Assembly (NCBI GenBank): GCA_024743175.1
Contig: JANSXA010000007.1
Span: forward strand, 1 to 64,000
Origin: Pseudomonadaceae bacterium
GTDB lineage: Bacteria; Pseudomonadota; Gammaproteobacteria; Pseudomonadales; Azotimanducaceae
Reading direction: 5' to 3'
Length of the DNA stretch: 64,000 nt
In this document: piece by piece, positions 6,688-12,663 of the stretch
How positions within the stretch are numbered: the first letter of the stretch is position 1
How the letters are laid out: each line of letters begins with the position of its first letter
Program-made: the position numbers and the translations under genes
The notes under the pieces: generated by a model
The model's database searches: none
Told to the model about the DNA's origin: nothing
Seen by the model: only the letters and a program-made list of their open reading frames with translations

Positions 6688-7229
6688 CAAAAGCAGCAAC
6701 ACTTAAACACTGCGCCCTGCTTGTTATCGACATGCAGGCTGGCCTAACGCCTGGTGCTTATCGGATAGACGAGGTAATTGAAAACACCAATGCCGTCAGC
6801 GCGCATCTGCATCAACAGGGTGGCCATGTTTTCTACATTCAGCATTGTCACAAGAGTTTTTCCGCTCTGCAGAAAGGTAACCCGGGTTGGGAGATCGACC
6901 CAAGACTGACACGCCGGGACGACGACCAGCTTATTGAGAAAGAAGCATCTGACGCGTTCTACAATACGCAGCTTGCATCATTGCTAACCGCGGCAAAAGT
7001 GAGCCACGTATACATTACGGGTATGCAAACTGAATTTTGTGTCGACACTACGTGTCGAGCGGCTTTGAATTACGTCGAGCAGGTCACTCTGGTCAGCGAT
7101 GCACACACCACCGGAGACGGCACTCTGTCAGCGGCTGACACTATCCATTACCACAACACCGTATTGGCTAACGTTGCACACCCCCGCGGCAACATCAATG
7201 TGATTCTCGCCCGGAACCTCATCGGCTAA
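6684..7229 (+). CDS. Isochorismatase-family cysteine hydrolase
   Basis: Cytoplasmic hydrolase of the isochorismatase/nicotinamidase fold, 181 residues. The nucleophile cysteine is in TGMQTEFCVDTTCRAA, preceded by the family's cis-peptide region; the catalytic Asp is in ALLVIDMQ (D16), and the lysine is probably that in LIEKEASDAF. Substrates in this family range from isochorismate to nicotinamide and N-carbamoyl compounds and cannot be told from sequence alone. It starts within the stop of the membrane protein and its own stop overlaps the next start by one base (TAATG), placing it inside the 4.1-7.5 kb operon. Confidence 0.85.
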   Translation: MTKAATLKHCALLVIDMQAGLTPGAYRIDEVIENTNAVSAHLHQQGGHVFYIQHCHKSFSALQKGNPGWEIDPRLTRRDDDQLIEKEASDAFYNTQLASLLTAAKVSHVYITGMQTEFCVDTTCRAALNYVEQVTLVSDAHTTGDGTLSAADTIHYHNTVLANVAHPRGNINVILARNLIG

Positions 7230-7519
7230 TGCTACATATTGCACTTCACCTTCTCGTGCCGGGACTTGTCAGCGCAGCTTTTTACCGACAACAATGGCTC
7301 AAGACTTATCTGCTGATGATGTCAGGCATGTTGATCGACATAGACCATCTGTTAGCTGACCCTGTCTATGATCCGATGCGTTGCAGTATCGGCTTCCACC
7401 CACTGCACACCTGGCTGCCAATTGGCTTGTACGTGCTGCTGCTGGCACACTCGAAAACCAGGCTGGTGGGCATTGGTTTGTGTATTCATATCGCGCTGGA
7501 TGCCGCAGACTGTTTATAA
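7229..7519 (+). CDS. DUF6122 family small membrane protein
   Basis: 96-residue integral membrane protein with three hydrophobic segments. The conserved stretch GMLIDIDHLLADPVYDP followed by RCSIGFHPLHTW, with clustered Asp and His residues, is characteristic of DUF6122 and resembles metal-dependent membrane hydrolases of the YdjM/PgpB-like kind; that similarity is inferred. The TAATG overlap with the isochorismatase-like gene shows coupling. Its TAA stop abuts the stop of the convergent acyl-CoA dehydrogenase gene (TTATAA), so the two genes have no intervening terminator. Confidence 0.7.
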   Translation: MLHIALHLLVPGLVSAAFYRQQWLKTYLLMMSGMLIDIDHLLADPVYDPMRCSIGFHPLHTWLPIGLYVLLLAHSKTRLVGIGLCIHIALDAADCL

Positions 7520-8692
7520 ACCCAAAACCTGTTTGGCGATAATATTGTGTTGCACTTCCGAGGAACCACCGGCAATTGTGTAGCCGCGATGGTGGTAACG
7601 ACCTGAGGCAACATATTCGGAAAGGTCTGGGCCAATAGCTTCCCGAGGTGCGTTTTTGCGATCACTGGGTAATGCCAGATAGTCGATCAGACGGAATAAC
7701 AACTCATCCTGATCCTGCACCAGCTGGCTGCCTTTGAGCTTCAACATAGAAGGCTCTGCGCCAATCTGCCCACCGGCATCTGCCTGAGTGAGAATCCTCA
7801 GGCTGGTCATCTCCAAAGCATGCAAACGTATCTCAAGTGCGCTGATTTCACCCGCAAGCGATTCAGGCAGGGTTTGGCCCATGGCCACCTGTTGCTCCAG
7901 AGTGTCTTTGACCACGCTCAAGACCCTTTTGTTCTCAGCCACCCTCGATACCAGCAGCCGCTCATCGCCGAGCAGACTTTTGGCCACAGTCCAACCATGG
8001 TTCTCTTCTCCCAGGCGCTGACTGACAGGTACACGCACGTTATCAAAGAAAACCTGATTCCATAATCGTTTACCGTTAAATGCATACAGTGGTTTGACCG
8101 TAACGCCAGGATCATCCATATCCATCAACAGGAAGCTGATGCCTTTCTGTTGCTGCACATCAAAATTGGTACGAACCAGAGCAAAAATCCAGCCTGCATC
8201 TTCCGCTGCCGAGGTCCAGATTTTCTGGCCGTTAACAATGTAGTCATCACCGTCTCGATCGGCACGGGTATTCAGGCTGGCGAGATCTGAACCCGCCTGC
8301 GGTTCAGAGTAACCCTGACAGAACCACAAATCTGCATTGAGAATTTTAGGCAGAAAGAATTGTCGCTGGGCTTGGGACCCATATCTGGCAATGGCCGGTC
8401 CAACCATGTTGAATCCAAAGCCTGACAACTGCGGCGCATGCGCACGTCGGCAGGCAACGTCAAAGATATGCCGCTGGATCAGATTCCAACCCGTACCGCC
8501 ATCCTCCACGGGCCAGTTTGGAGCCGCCCAGCCTCTGGCATTCAGGGTTCGAGTCCAGCCCGCCAGTTCAGCCTTGGATACACCCGCACCGCAGCGCACT
8601 TTTTGCGCCAGATCCTGCGGCAGCTCTGCTGCAAGAAAGTCTTCTATTTCACTCTGGAATCGCTGCAGATCTTCGGTTAATTCAAATCGCAT
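7514..8692 (-). CDS. Acyl-CoA dehydrogenase family protein
   Basis: FAD flavoenzyme catalysing alpha-beta dehydrogenation of an acyl-CoA thioester, 392 residues. Landmarks: N-terminal helical domain, the beta-domain signature CQGYSEPQAGSDLASLNTRA, then KIWTSAAEDAGW and the C-terminal GGSSEVQHNIIAKQVLGL. The substrate class (straight-chain, branched, steroid side chain) is not evident. Start ATG at 8692. It follows the methionine aminopeptidase gene by 50 bases on the same strand, and its 3' end is convergent with the DUF6122 gene with abutting stop codons. Confidence 0.92.
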   Translation of the reverse strand: MRFELTEDLQRFQSEIEDFLAAELPQDLAQKVRCGAGVSKAELAGWTRTLNARGWAAPNWPVEDGGTGWNLIQRHIFDVACRRAHAPQLSGFGFNMVGPAIARYGSQAQRQFFLPKILNADLWFCQGYSEPQAGSDLASLNTRADRDGDDYIVNGQKIWTSAAEDAGWIFALVRTNFDVQQQKGISFLLMDMDDPGVTVKPLYAFNGKRLWNQVFFDNVRVPVSQRLGEENHGWTVAKSLLGDERLLVSRVAENKRVLSVVKDTLEQQVAMGQTLPESLAGEISALEIRLHALEMTSLRILTQADAGGQIGAEPSMLKLKGSQLVQDQDELLFRLIDYLALPSDRKNAPREAIGPDLSEYVASGRYHHRGYTIAGGSSEVQHNIIAKQVLGL

Positions 8693-8742: not shown

Positions 8743-9483
8743 CTAAGCGGTCACCACCAGTGCTTCGCGATCCGTCACAACAATTGTGTGCTCAAACTGA
8801 GCTACCAGTTCTCCAGGGGGTACAGATAGCGTCCACCCATCGTCTTCTTCATGCACCCAGGAAACCCCGGTACTGAAAAACGGTTCGATAGTCAGTACCA
8901 TGCCTCGGGTCAGTTTTCTGGTTTCTTTAGGATTATCAAACGGAATATACGATGGCTCTTCGTGAATTGATGCGCCGACGCCATGACTGCCGAGATTCTG
9001 TACGATGGTGTAACCCTCGCGGTCAGCAACAGCCTGCACTGCGCGGCCAATGACATTCAGCGAGCGACCGGAACGCACCTTTGTTATTGCACTGTCTACC
9101 GCTTCCCTGACGGCCTGACATATCCGCGCCTGCTCCGGATGCGCGTCACCGACCACAAACGACTGCCCCATGTCCGCTACAAACCCGTTGCGATTCGCCG
9201 ACACGTCAATATTGATCATATCGCCATTCGCAATGCACGCATCGCCAGGAATACCATGCGCGGCCTGCTCATTTATTGAAATACAGGTTGCACCTGGAAA
9301 GTCGTAGTACAGCTGCGGCGCAGACTTAGCGCCGTATTGCTTAAGCACTTTCGCCCCGACGTCGTCTAATTCACGCGTTGTCATACCCGCTTGACAGGCC
9401 TCCACCATGGCATCAAAAGCGGCACGCACTGCGATACCAGCGTGTTTCAAACCATCTATCTGGGATTGTGTTCTAGCGTTCAT
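8743..9483 (-). CDS. map: Type I methionine aminopeptidase
   Basis: Removes the N-terminal methionine from nascent proteins in the cytosol. The 246-residue product shows the five metal ligands of the pita-bread fold in order: Asp in IDVSANRNGFVADMG (two aspartates), His in LGSHGVG, Glu in TIEPFFS and Glu in AQFEHTI, with the substrate histidine in AAHGIPG. Length is standard for MetAP-Ia. It sits between a Tag glycosylase gene and an acyl-CoA dehydrogenase gene rather than near rpsB, so it may be a secondary copy; that is inference. Confidence 0.93.
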   Translation of the reverse strand: MNARTQSQIDGLKHAGIAVRAAFDAMVEACQAGMTTRELDDVGAKVLKQYGAKSAPQLYYDFPGATCISINEQAAHGIPGDACIANGDMINIDVSANRNGFVADMGQSFVVGDAHPEQARICQAVREAVDSAITKVRSGRSLNVIGRAVQAVADREGYTIVQNLGSHGVGASIHEEPSYIPFDNPKETRKLTRGMVLTIEPFFSTGVSWVHEEDDGWTLSVPPGELVAQFEHTIVVTDREALVVTA

Positions 9484-9493
9484 GATGCCCCCT

Positions 9494-10192
9494 CTACGGC
9501 ACCGAACAGGCTAACACGCGAGAAACACGGTTGTAACTCCAGCCACTTTCTTCGCGCCACCGGGTAAACGCAGCCTGGGTCTGCTGCAGTGCCCGCTTGC
9601 CCGTTGGCGCTTTATCCACCACGCCTGCGGCAACCAGTGCCCGCACGACGTCGGCAGACAGCATCGGCGTGTCGTAGCCGATAAAGCGCAAAAAATAGCG
9701 GCCAGTCTGCCCGCCAAGTCTGCTGCCTCGAACTTTCAATTCATGCCACAGACCTACCAAGTCATCCTGCGGCCATGCAGCGAGAAACTGCGCAAAGCTG
9801 CCATGCTCTGCCCGCACATCCAGGACAAACTGCGCATTTGCGGGAACGCTGCGGATTTTCTGTCCATGGCGCACGATCGCCGTGTTTGTCTGCAGCTTTT
9901 CCAGTTCCTCATCGGACAACATCGCGCAGCGCGTCACATCAAACTGGTGAAAGGCCTGCTCAAACCCCGGCCATTTAGCTTCTATAATTTTCCACACGAA
10001 ACCCGACCGAAACACACATTTAGTCATCTCACTGAGAATTTGCGCGTCCGAGACCTTCAGCAGTTCTTTTCCGGCCAGGGGCTCGGACACTGTCTCGTCG
10101 AGCAGCGTTGCAAACGCCGCAGTGCCACCCTTGCGCGAAGCCGCTCGGTCGAAGATGCTTGTAAATGAATCCAACGGTGTAAGTACCTGCAA
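9494..10192 (-). CDS. Divergent DNA-3-methyladenine glycosylase I (Tag family)
   Basis: Base-excision repair glycosylase of the Tag type, HhH fold, 232 residues. Recognisable parts are LSEMTKCVFRSGFVWKIIEAKWPGF, the NTAIVRHGQKIRSV helix pair and the GGQTGRYFLRFIGYD region. The canonical Tag zinc 'snap' (an early Cys-Trp motif plus a C-terminal His/Cys pair) is not visible, so this is a zinc-less relative. The only plausible start is TTG at 10192 with no clear ribosome site, just 14 bases from the divergent CULT gene start. It runs into map with a 10-base gap. Confidence 0.75.
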   Translation of the reverse strand: MQVLTPLDSFTSIFDRAASRKGGTAAFATLLDETVSEPLAGKELLKVSDAQILSEMTKCVFRSGFVWKIIEAKWPGFEQAFHQFDVTRCAMLSDEELEKLQTNTAIVRHGQKIRSVPANAQFVLDVRAEHGSFAQFLAAWPQDDLVGLWHELKVRGSRLGGQTGRYFLRFIGYDTPMLSADVVRALVAAGVVDKAPTGKRALQQTQAAFTRWREESGWSYNRVSRVLACSVP

Positions 10193-10206
10193 GTGGAATC
10201 TAAAAA

Positions 10207-10602
10207 ATGAGCGAAGTAGACGAACCCAGCCAATCTGTCCTCGATCCGGATCTGAAATCGATCTTAGAGACTGACAGCACAGATGACAAAAATTACATTT
10301 ATTGCGGCACCTGTTCTCACGTCATCACCACCGTTGCGACGAAAATTGAAGTTAACGGCAAGCACAGCCACTATTTCATCAATCCACACGGATTTGAATA
10401 CCAGGTGGGATGTTTTGCCAATGCATTAGGCTGCGCGCTATCCGGCTCGCCGGAAGCTGCAGACAGCTGGTTCATGGGCTATTTCTGGCGCCTTGCAGCC
10501 TGCGAGCAATGTCATACTCATCTGGGATGGTATTTTGCCCGCGCAAACGGGGAAGATTTCTTCTACGGACTTATTCTCGACCACATTCAGGAGGATGTTT
10601 AG
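10207..10602 (+). CDS. Cereblon-like CULT domain protein
   Basis: 131-residue soluble protein consisting almost only of a CULT domain, the fold that binds thalidomide-type imides in human cereblon. Seen in sequence: CGTC (C33, C36) and CEQC (C99, C102) for one zinc; NPHG at 59-62; and three tryptophans W88, W94 and W108 placed to form the aromatic cage. The spacing of W88/W94/C99/C102/W108 equals that of human W380/W386/C391/C394/W400. There is no Lon-like domain, as in known bacterial single-domain homologues, whose role is unknown. It is divergent from the Tag gene by 14 bases and lies 84 bases before the PTPS-like gene. Confidence 0.88.
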   Translation: MSEVDEPSQSVLDPDLKSILETDSTDDKNYIYCGTCSHVITTVATKIEVNGKHSHYFINPHGFEYQVGCFANALGCALSGSPEAADSWFMGYFWRLAACEQCHTHLGWYFARANGEDFFYGLILDHIQEDV

Positions 10603-10614
10603 CCTCAGATTGTC

Positions 10615-10660
10615 TTTAACCCTGGAACTTTCACGACACCTTGCCAGAGCCTGGGTTAAA
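10615..10660. promoter_or_regulatory. Inverted repeat between the CULT and PTPS-like genes
   Basis: The eight-base arms tttaaccc (10615-10622) and gggttaaa (10653-10660) are perfectly complementary, and an inner ctgg/ccag pair extends the potential stem. The outer loop is about 30 bases, long for a terminator, and there is no T-run after it. It may be a palindromic operator or an RNA structure in the intercistronic spacer. I see no match to a preQ1 riboswitch. Confidence 0.35.
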
Positions 10661-10686
10661 GTTTGCGAACAACTGGATAAACCGCT

Positions 10687-11205
10687 ATGCCTCAAGATAC
10701 AACCACTATTGAAATCAGCAAAGAGTACCTGCACTTTGCCGCTGCGCACTTCACTCTGTTCTCAGCCACAGACCGTGAAAACCTGCATGGTCACAACTTC
10801 CAGGTGACTCTGGATGCAACCGCCAGAATTGCTGAAGATGGGCTGACTTTTGACTACAACATTCTGAAGAAAGCGCTCAAAGCCCTGTGTGACGAACTGG
10901 ATGAGCAGGTGTTGATGCCGACTCAATCTCCTTATCTCGAGATCGAAAAAGACAATCAATACACGTTCATCATATTCAATGGTGAGCGCATTCCTTTTCT
11001 GGATCGCGACCTTACGCTGTTACCTGTCAGAAACATTACCGTAGAAGAAATGGCGCAGTATTTTCTCGACAGACTACGTCATCGACCGGACATCGCTGAA
11101 CTCGATGTCAATCATCTGGTGTTGCGTTGTTCATCCGGTGAAGGCCAATGGGCAACCGCGTCATGGCAGCATCAATCCACCGAGCAAGCGGAGCAGACAA
11201 TTTGA
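10687..11205 (+). CDS. 6-pyruvoyl-tetrahydropterin synthase family protein, PTPS-III-like
   Basis: T-fold pterin enzyme of 172 residues acting on dihydroneopterin triphosphate. Zinc ligands are H21 (FAAAHF), H34 and H36 (LHGHNF). The catalytic cysteine that QueD and PTPS carry just before HGH is absent; the sequence there is DRENLHGHN, with Arg at the QueD cysteine position and Glu at -3. The R-E-x-L-H-G-H-N pattern recalls PTPS-III, which releases 6-hydroxymethyldihydropterin and can replace FolB in folate synthesis. It follows the CULT gene and its TGA stop overlaps a TTG start of the SDR gene. QueD function is possible but less likely. Confidence 0.78.
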   Translation: MPQDTTTIEISKEYLHFAAAHFTLFSATDRENLHGHNFQVTLDATARIAEDGLTFDYNILKKALKALCDELDEQVLMPTQSPYLEIEKDNQYTFIIFNGERIPFLDRDLTLLPVRNITVEEMAQYFLDRLRHRPDIAELDVNHLVLRCSSGEGQWATASWQHQSTEQAEQTI

Positions 11206-11897
11206 ATTACCTAGTCATCACCGGCGCCAGCGCAGGCATTGGCCTGAAAACCGCTGAGGCATTTGTGTCCGCGGGCTATGGGGTTATCAACCTTTCGCGC
11301 CGTCCCTGCCCGCTTGAATCTGCTCACCATATCGAATGTGACCTGGCAGACCCGGATTTTCTTACCGCCCTCGCACCGGAACTGAACAAACTGCTGGTCG
11401 ATGTTGATGCACTGGTGCTGATTCACAATGCGGCTCGGCTGGTCAGCGACAGCACAACAGAAACTGATAGTCAGGACTTCCGCGACATCATCGAAATCAA
11501 TATGGTTGCGCCAAATACACTCAATCAATTTCTGATACCACACATGGGCCCGGGGTCGAGCATTTTATACGTTGGCTCAACGCTGTCTGAAAAGGCGGTG
11601 CCAGGCTCGTTCAGCTACGTCACAACCAAACACGCGATGGTCGGCATGATGCGCGCCACCTGCCAGGACCTGGCCGGACGTGAAATTCATACGGCTTGTA
11701 TCTGTCCCGGTTTTACCGACACTGAGATGTTGCGGGCTCATGTGCCAGCGGATGCGATGGCGATGATCAGCGGCATGAGTGCTTATGAACGCCTGGTGCG
11801 GCCGGAAGAAATTGCCGACTCACTGCTGTGGGCTGCCAACAGTCCGGTCATCAACGGCGCGGTGATCCACGCCAACCTCGGCCAGGTAGAGCGCTAG
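11202..11897 (+). CDS. SDR family oxidoreductase (pterin or carbonyl reductase candidate)
   Basis: Short-chain dehydrogenase/reductase with the cofactor motif TGASAGIG at the very N-terminus, HNAA in place of NNAG, and catalytic Ser and YVTTK. About 231 residues. I place the start at TTG 11202: it overlaps the preceding TGA stop (TTGA), has gcggag eight bases upstream, and gives the usual 5-6 residues before the glycine motif. ATG starts at 11148 or 11163 would give a long overlap with the PTPS-like gene. The arginine pair in LSRRP suggests NADPH preference. Coupling to a PTPS-type enzyme suggests a reduced-pterin substrate, as for sepiapterin reductase; this is inference. Confidence 0.82.
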   Translation: MNYLVITGASAGIGLKTAEAFVSAGYGVINLSRRPCPLESAHHIECDLADPDFLTALAPELNKLLVDVDALVLIHNAARLVSDSTTETDSQDFRDIIEINMVAPNTLNQFLIPHMGPGSSILYVGSTLSEKAVPGSFSYVTTKHAMVGMMRATCQDLAGREIHTACICPGFTDTEMLRAHVPADAMAMISGMSAYERLVRPEEIADSLLWAANSPVINGAVIHANLGQVER

Positions 11898-11904
11898 TCA
11901 CGCG

Positions 11905-12663
11905 TCAGACGTCAGATGCTTCTTCAGTGCCTTTAAGGCCGAGATAAGGACGCAGATACTTCACCGCGAGATAGATCGGTCCGGTATCCGCCGCAGCAAC
12001 AACCAGCTTGAACACATAACCGGACGCAATGAACACAAACAACTGCGGCCAGATCGGCTCGCCATCGTTTATTGGCAAAGCTTGCGCATAAAAGTGCGTG
12101 ATCAGAATCACCGCCGTCGTGTCCACTATCTGGCTGACCATTGTTGATGCGTTGTTACGCAACCACAGGTGTTTGCCGGCGGTGAGCTTCTTCCAGAAGT
12201 GGAACAGGCGAACGTCAACAAACTGCGCAATAAGGTAGGCCAGCATTGAGGCCGCCACAGCACCAAACGCCAGTTCGCGTATCTCATAAAACACCGGGAG
12301 TCGCCCGGCTTCATCAAGCATCGGCCCACCCGTGGCAGGATCAATAATTTCAAATCCCGGTAAAGCCCCACCCAACCACAACAGAAAAATCACCCAGAGG
12401 TTCAGCAACAGACCTACCCAGACCATGTCGCGTGCTTTTTTCTCACCAAAAAGTTCGGAGATGAGATCGGTGCACATAAAAGTAACCGGATACGGTAGCA
12501 CCCCTACCGCTACAACCATGGGTATCTGCAGACCAAATACGTTGAATGACAAGTCGACAAACCGGCTGATACCCAACACATTCAGCAGCGCCAGGGTGCC
12601 CAGGAAGATGCCCGAGAGAATCAGGAATACGCGCTGCCGACGCTTGTGATAGTCCGGTGTCAT
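11905..12663 (-). CDS. yhhQ: Queuosine precursor transporter, YhhQ/DUF165 family
   Basis: Inner-membrane importer of the vitamin uptake (VUT) superfamily, known in E. coli to take up the queuosine precursors preQ0 and preQ1. 252 residues with about six helices; the family signatures LPYPVTFMCTDLISELFGEKKAR and WLRNNASTMVSQIVDTTAVILITHF (key residues D, E, N, S, Q, D) are present. It is convergent with the SDR gene, seven bases between stops, and downstream of a D-2-hydroxyacid dehydrogenase on its own strand. Its presence suggests that this strain can salvage queuosine precursors. Confidence 0.9.
   Translation of the reverse strand: MTPDYHKRRQRVFLILSGIFLGTLALLNVLGISRFVDLSFNVFGLQIPMVVAVGVLPYPVTFMCTDLISELFGEKKARDMVWVGLLLNLWVIFLLWLGGALPGFEIIDPATGGPMLDEAGRLPVFYEIRELAFGAVAASMLAYLIAQFVDVRLFHFWKKLTAGKHLWLRNNASTMVSQIVDTTAVILITHFYAQALPINDGEPIWPQLFVFIASGYVFKLVVAAADTGPIYLAVKYLRPYLGLKGTEEASDV

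Follow-up and report, generated by a model that had tools for sequence, protein, structure and literature searches.

The gene described here encodes a stand-alone protein of the CULT type, the thalidomide-binding domain of cereblon, and its product is a further member of a family already known in bacteria. That family was described in 2015 (PMC4287342), and the protein fits every testable feature of bacterial CULT group I as defined there. The window analysed, a stretch of 64,000 nucleotides (64 kb), forms the start of contig C16 in a genome of 4.7 Mb and 18 contigs, which belongs to a gammaproteobacterium that has not been cultured. On balance, we consider it probable that the protein, a predicted zinc beta-tent, binds a cyclic imide or uracil-type ring in a binding or adaptor role, and that its gene neighbours are not its partners.

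The CULT gene and its protein

The open reading frame of 131 residues reported by the first-pass annotation is present, from ATG to stop, at the coordinates listed in Table 1, and all of the residues named there (C33, C36, C99, C102, W88, W94, W108 and N59-P60) occupy the positions given. The claim that W88, W94, C99, C102, W108 and the NP motif are spaced as in human cereblon also holds, with a constant offset of 292 that places W88, W94, C99, C102, W108, N59 and P60 at 380, 386, 391, 394, 400, 351 and 352, respectively; 391, 394, 351 and 352 are what we take to be the human numbers of the matched cysteines and of the N-P positions. The first CxxC pair is off-register, since at the same offset C33 and C36 fall on 325 and 328, and the human pair is presumably C323/C326. 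The human numbers of the cage tryptophans (380, 386 and 400) and the roles of the pocket-rim positions 377 and 378 are those of PMC8900816, and the NPxG motif is named in PMC4449219.

The protein consists of the CULT domain only, with a confident model for residues 31-130 preceded by a 30-residue N-terminal tail. A LON domain is absent, because 131 amino acids leave no room for one, and the Pfam scan gave Yippee-Mis18 alone. The protein is probably cytoplasmic, no signal sequence being visible by eye, and a secreted form was set aside on the same ground. Within positions 9900-12000, four promoter-like sites (1.5 expected) and three terminator-like sites (2.0 expected) were counted, none of them just upstream of the CULT gene.

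Table 1. Features of the CULT gene, its protein and neighbouring genes (window coordinates, or locus coordinates where a locus is named)
Feature	Coordinates	Strand	Remarks
CULT-domain protein gene	10207..10602	+	ATG start, 131 codons, stop ends at 10602
N-terminal motif, residues 12-21, LDPDLKSILE	10240..10269	+	from alignments; short helix predicted with low confidence
First zinc-knuckle pair C33-x2-C36	10303..10314	+	Cys in 60/61 CULT proteins at each, one gap
NPxG motif N59-P60-H61-G62, hairpin tip (human N351-P352-H353)	10381..10392	+	N 61/61, P 60/61
A85-D86, pocket rim (human Glu377, His378)	10459..10464	+	Ala-Asp in 10/10 congeners
Cage tryptophan W88 (human W380)	10468..10470	+	61/61
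Cage tryptophan W94 (human W386)	10486..10488	+	61/61
Second zinc-knuckle pair C99-x2-C102	10501..10512	+	C99 60/61 (one gap), C102 61/61
Cage tryptophan W108 (human W400) and cage base F110	10528..10536	+	W 61/61; position 110: F 48, Y 13
Acyl-CoA dehydrogenase family	7514..8692	-	neighbour of CULT
Type I methionine aminopeptidase	8743..9483	-	TIGR00500, 239.1 bits, cut-off 171.35
Tag-family (PF03352) protein	9494..10192	-	divergent neighbour; not canonical Tag by curated model
COG0720/PTPS protein, PTPS-III signature ExxHGH (ENLHGH)	10687..11205	+	downstream of CULT
SDR oxidoreductase	11148..11897	+	downstream; likely true start TTG at 11202
Queuosine-precursor-transporter family (Vut_1, TIGR00697)	11905..12663	-	neighbour beyond SDR
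TauE/SafE upstream genes	L105 3296-4099, L106 3190-3975, L111 6249-7052, L126 7811-8737, L127 6086-6892	same as CULT
Rhodanese-like genes directly 3' of CULT	L135 3005-3430, L137 3649-4074, L142 7548-8066, L147 7799-8248

Family assignment and predicted fold

A phmmer search of solved structures with the window protein returned 47 distinct sequences at E <= 1. The top eight were the Magnetospirillum gryphiswaldense CULT protein ('Cereblon isoform 4'; 1e-22 to 5e-21), and these were followed by 38 chains named 'Protein cereblon' (3e-12 to 8e-11) and, in last place, by a weak, unrelated match (E 0.44). The values for the Magnetospirillum and cereblon chains rule out a chance resemblance to CULT. 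The Pfam scan matched only Yippee-Mis18 (PF03226), at 19.9 bits and below its cut-off of 26.6, and the NCBIfam scan gave no family at E <= 0.001. Yippee/Mis18 is a related zinc beta-tent, but CULT is by far the nearer relative of the window protein.

An AlphaFold2 model built from 15 aligned relatives had a mean pLDDT of 85; block means lay between 46 and 58 in the 30 N-terminal residues and between 91 and 98 in residues 31-130. Compared with known structures by Foldseek, it gave 162 matches at E <= 0.001, and the 50 listed were all MsCI4 or cereblon structures. The best match was MsCI4 6r0q (1.7e-11; rmsd 1.7 Å over 104 columns), and rmsd values of 1.6 over 102 columns were obtained both with the thalidomide-bound 4v2y_B and with the cereblon domain 9dom_A (in Å for the latter, at 28% identity). 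The comparison with cereblon CULT structures that had been proposed for this protein thus yields a predicted CULT beta-tent fold.

The closest solved relative is MsCI4 (M. gryphiswaldense cereblon isoform 4, MGR_0879; PDB 4v2y and others), which shares with the window protein the stand-alone CULT architecture, the predicted fold, the zinc cysteines, the three-tryptophan cage and the NP motif, at 36% identity over the domain. The two differ at the pocket rim and cage base, where the window protein has A85-D86 and F110 and MsCI4 has Glu76-Phe77 and Tyr101 (PMC8900816). In the NPxG loop, H61 of the window protein corresponds to an Ala of the 4v2y chain, and the N-terminal LDPxLxxML segment of the window genus is left uncovered by matches to MsCI4. 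The thalidomide-binding domain of human cereblon (CRBN) has the cage tryptophans and the NP motif in common with the window CULT, and its residue 353 and cage base are taken to be His and Phe, like H61 and F110 here. Unlike human cereblon, which is a CRL4 substrate receptor, the window protein carries neither a LON domain nor the DDB1-binding part, and it has Ala-Asp in place of Glu377-His378.

Conservation of the cage and of the pocket rim

Conservation was assessed in 61 CULT proteins, which together represent 33 Pseudomonadota families. The genus contributed 10 of them (the window protein included), its order another five, a draw across the class 26 and a draw across the phylum 20. Four fragment places (two each in genomes G413 and G142), among 31 places of the class draw, were left out of these rows. 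W88, W94, W108, N59 and C102 were identical in all 61 proteins, and P60, C33, C36 and C99 were each found in 60. The single gaps at the three cysteines all stem from locus L127, whose CULT frame (7072-7318) has no first CxxC pair and an incomplete second one, and is probably truncated or degenerate. The description of the protein as a stand-alone CULT domain with a zinc site and a tryptophan cage is thus upheld by its sequence, its predicted structure and conservation across the 61 proteins.

The pocket rim sets the genus apart. At the position of human Glu377 all 10 congeners have Ala, while the 51 other proteins have Glu (35), Ala (7) or another residue (9). At the position of His378 (D86 in the window) the 10 congeners have Asp, compared with Phe in 25, His in 14, Tyr in five, Trp in three, Asn in two, and Ala and Asp in one each of the 51. 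Ala85-Asp86 in place of Glu377-His378 could alter which ligand binds. In MsCI4, the backbone takes part in binding at two positions, 378 with the imide NH and 380 with a keto group, and the Glu at 377 is in contact with an amine of avadomide (PMC8900816). As the contact at 378 is made by the backbone, and the Glu at 377 touches the amine of avadomide, the Ala-Asp rim may tune ligands that reach beyond the ring, with ring binding retained.

The rim is accompanied in the genus by an N-terminal LDPxLxxML motif, which lies outside the domain and mostly reads LDPxLxSML(E/D), with LEPKLKAMLE and LDPELRVMLE in two congeners. A genus CULT that has a retuned pocket and an N-terminal docking segment, and that would read a different ligand and pass it to a partner protein, seems to us distinctly unlikely; were it true, bacterial CULT would have its first lineage that combines a specificity of its own with a defined docking element. 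We read the Ala-Asp rim and the N-terminal segment as marks of this lineage, insufficient for a new kind of CULT.

Distribution of CULT

Among relatives, CULT was found in 15 of 58 genomes (its own included), 10 of which belong to the 37 genomes of the genus. The CULT-bearing congener assemblies measure 4.0-6.0 Mb, save one of 2.8 Mb (69% completeness), and the 27 CULT-less ones 1.6-3.4 Mb, some of them incomplete. With the window's own genome counted, the class-wide draw gave CULT in 29 of 369 genomes and the phylum-wide draw in 21 of 398. The other 20 genomes of the phylum draw all fall in the class of G562, where they make up 20 of 48, so that the remaining 350 genomes gave the window's match alone and the phylum-wide sample of CULT is uneven.

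A scan of genome contigs with the single CULT protein recovered two relatives, both in congeners (G031 and G009). A tblastn search of plasmid and phage records with the same protein gave no match, and of 25 stretches of viral contigs that matched the pattern of a 15-row CULT alignment none encodes a relative. The idea that CULT is phage or plasmid cargo was rejected on these results.

Genes flanking CULT in the window

The gaps of 14 bases to the repair gene and 84 bases to the pterin gene, as first annotated, were confirmed, the former for the earliest TTG of the Tag-like frame. Many homologous matches of the Tag-like protein start at residue 7, where another TTG sits, and with that start the gap becomes 32 bases. 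Missing from the first-pass annotation was the strand: the Tag-like gene lies on the opposite strand and is divergent, and it is therefore outside any operon with CULT. Its label as a DNA repair glycosylase is justified at the level of the Tag family (PF03352, 62.5 bits against a cut-off of 25) and fails for canonical Tag (TIGR00624, 48 bits against 232.5). Only the middle third of the protein, residues 61-141 at most, aligns with solved Tag; residue 59, a Cys two residues outside the alignment, presumably corresponds to the functional Glu38 of E. coli Tag. The divergent branch to which this neighbour (9494-10192) belongs is shared by many of the order's genomes, and several of them carry a second, weaker-matching Tag relative elsewhere.

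The PTPS protein carries RENLHGH, i.e., the ExxHGH signature and not the CxxxHGH of QueD; the former marks PTPS-III (folate branch) and the latter QueD (PMC5041015). FolB, searched for with a possible substitution by PTPS-III in mind, is present in the window's own genome, so that PTPS-III is not obviously needed for folate. The best solved relatives of the PTPS protein are 1y13 and 2a0s, which we take to be Plasmodium proteins. The likely TTG start of the SDR gene overlaps the TGA stop of PTPS at 11202-11205, which suggests translational coupling of PTPS and SDR.

Gene order within the genus

In all 10 CULT-bearing congeners, the Tag-like and aminopeptidase genes lie on one side of CULT and PTPS-SDR on the other. 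An extra gene, encoding a HAD-family hydrolase, stands between CULT and PTPS at locus L018 (7572-8261), and a similar gene is placed likewise at L022. PTPS is kept in 21 of the 27 CULT-less congeners; one of these matches is a contig-end fragment and five run over a stop codon, which may fall beyond the gene end. An SDR gene of the same kind adjoins PTPS in each of the 15 CULT-less congeners whose region was read. The Tag-like gene is kept in 18 of the 27, at an identity of at least 56% and once as a fragment. Among the 16 CULT-less congeners with both genes, 15 have them on separate contigs or, in G004, 57 kb apart, although contig breaks leave room for adjacency where the PTPS region is unread or ends early. 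In the sixteenth, G003, the Tag-like and PTPS genes face each other with about 145 bases between their aligned parts, CULT is absent from that place, and the assembly gave no CULT match.

A tree was built from seven genes of the CULT region for 25 of the 37 genus genomes, the 12 left out being all CULT-less. G003 groups with the ten CULT-bearing genomes (local support 0.97), the window's own branch being placed weakly inside that group (0.38), and the other 14 CULT-less genomes lie outside, their own grouping having a support of 0.89. Since the CULT-bearing genomes form one group, the ten-fold conservation of gene order amounts to about one observation and one clean loss.

Gene neighbourhoods outside the genus

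The 51 CULT neighbourhoods outside the genus reached about 7 kb at most to either side, and contig ends shortened some of them. Genes were called as the longest ORFs, backed by homology, a heuristic that may have produced spurious short neighbours or overlooked others, and profile searches covered frames of at least 60 amino acids. Profiles of PTPS, the Tag-like protein, the aminopeptidase and the transporter matched in none of the 51 neighbourhoods, and the first three were found with the same profiles in 10/10 genus loci. SDR-family genes occurred in five of the 51 and acyl-CoA dehydrogenase in one, both being very common families. The proposed search for the order CULT-PTPS-SDR in other genomes thus succeeded among the CULT-bearing congeners and found no counterpart with PTPS at the 51 other loci.

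Most of the 99 nearest neighbours of the 51 loci adjoin CULT, and some were taken one gene beyond an adjoining frame that seemed spurious. Their commonest Pfam families, 25 of the 117 being listed, were TauE (5), DUF7939 (5), BatD (4) and rhodanese (4). In five loci of four families, CULT is preceded at 15-180 bases by a same-strand TauE/SafE gene, and the five TauE members are taken to be this five-member upstream cluster; at L127 the TauE-CULT pair is kept though the outer genes differ. A rhodanese-like gene follows CULT, near-overlapping or overlapping, in four loci of three families, two of the four genes having been scanned singly. In one family, a BatD-like gene precedes CULT on the same strand in five of eight loci (L128, L129, L132, L134 and L144), and the BatD/DUF7939 members are taken to represent this five-member cluster, L128 having been scanned singly. 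Both genomes of another family have an EF-G-like gene near CULT on the same strand (L116 5856-8066, L118 5334-7385). Single same-strand neighbours encode pseudouridine synthase, SpoU methylase, thioredoxin, Sel1 repeats and FIST. Loose clustering gave one group present in eight families within three or six genes of CULT, scattered and on both strands, which is taken to consist of common signalling proteins and was left out of the context count.

The first-pass annotation had staked its proposal on CULT genes occurring with pterin or repair genes at all, and to the letter they do: at one of the 51 loci, L108 (6168-8793), an AAA/FHA-domain gene (56 bases away), CULT and a 5'-3' exonuclease gene (14 bases downstream) lie on one strand. 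A nucleic-acid gene beside CULT does occur, and no kind recurs widely. Over the 61 loci of 33 families no specific neighbour is fixed beside CULT in more than four families, and none recurs widely enough to name a partner. We know of no partner, protease or other, of any bacterial CULT. In the literature covered, outside which most subscription papers fall, the role or gene context of bacterial CULT is unreported beyond PMC4287342.

Native ligand and alternative explanations

Two alternatives take the flanking genes as the guide. That CULT, PTPS-III and SDR act together, with CULT binding a pterin or a pterin-pathway intermediate, is suggested by the short same-strand gap between CULT and PTPS in the window, by the CULT then PTPS-SDR order in 10/10 CULT-bearing congeners (two with a gene between) and by the ExxHGH signature. 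We regard it as exceedingly unlikely: PTPS (21/27), with SDR beside it (15/15), persists in congeners that have no CULT, the ten cases are about one event, PTPS is near none of the 51 other loci (in G039 the CULT and PTPS genes are on different contigs), and pterin, with its two rings, would be without precedent as a ligand class for a cage that holds one ring in the homologue. It is also very improbable that CULT senses nucleobase damage by binding uracil- or deoxyuridine-type lesions and serves repair with the divergent Tag-like gene. The head-to-head arrangement with this gene in 10/10 CULT-bearing congeners, a homologue structure with deoxyuridine (4v31) and the exonuclease gene beside one other CULT speak for such a sensor. 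Tag, however, acts on alkyladenine and not on uracil, and the window protein is a divergent Tag; the gene is kept without CULT in 18/27 congeners, with PTPS elsewhere in 15 of 16 and beside PTPS in G003, and this Tag family is found in 0/51 other CULT neighbourhoods. The hope that the neighbours would help to guess the ligand is thus not borne out, because they are found beside CULT in one genus only, and the pterin and Tag-like neighbours are probably no functional partners of CULT. Their flanking of CULT in 10/10 congeners does count against our preferred explanation, and others may weigh it more.

The remaining alternatives look to other genomes or to the pocket. From the commonest neighbours elsewhere, CULT might serve in cellular redox or sulfur stress; TauE/SafE upstream in 5/51 and rhodanese downstream in 4/51 non-genus loci fit this, as do single genes for thioredoxin (L131) and for a rubrerythrin-like protein (at L142, with two members of this kind among the neighbours). 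Three of the four TauE families share wider synteny, so inherited gene order may explain the TauE-CULT pair, CULT has none of these genes beside it in the window genus, and the EF-G, BatD, pseudouridine synthase and Sel1 neighbours point elsewhere, which leaves such a role very doubtful. The genus CULT may instead have left the cyclic-imide ligand for a different, more basic or amine-bearing ring taken via Asp86, given A85-D86 in 10/10 congeners against Glu377 in 35 and Asp378 in one of the 51 others, and the amine contact of Glu at 377 in the homologue (PMC8900816). We hold this to be unlikely, as the cage tryptophans are kept and, according to the same source, the imide contact at 378 is made by the backbone, so that a side-chain swap need not matter.

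Cyclic-imide or uracil-type binding by a zinc beta-tent remains the reading we prefer. The window CULT is predicted to fold into the same zinc-stabilised beta-tent as the thalidomide-binding domain of cereblon. By analogy with its homologues, a five- or six-membered cyclic imide or uracil-type ring would be held between W88, W94 and W108, with backbone hydrogen bonds at D86 and W88, and the site would be closed upon ligand binding by the N59-P60 hairpin. MsCI4 binds uracil, uridine and thalidomide (PMC4287342), and a bond between the hairpin and W79, with partial unfolding on ligand release, has been described in a CULT homologue (PMC4449219); from these we infer imide or uracil binding and the closing hairpin. 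C-terminal aspartimide and glutarimide, which are similar to what protein damage produces, are recognised by human cereblon (PMC12117711), and this recognition may extend to bacterial CULT. The most likely role would then be that of a binding or adaptor protein for cyclic-imide groups, candidates being the aspartimide or glutarimide ends of damaged proteins, or for related free metabolites. We rank this role as the likeliest, yet for the native ligand taken alone its odds are below even, and any statement on the native ligand and output of the window CULT is speculative.

The natural role of CULT matters because the human version is the receptor for thalidomide-type drugs and degraders, and stand-alone bacterial copies could reveal it. 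For Pseudomonadota at least, our survey points to gene neighbourhoods being insufficient for this on their own. The window genus, with related species with and without CULT and the Ala-Asp rim in all of its CULT proteins seen, is a natural experiment.
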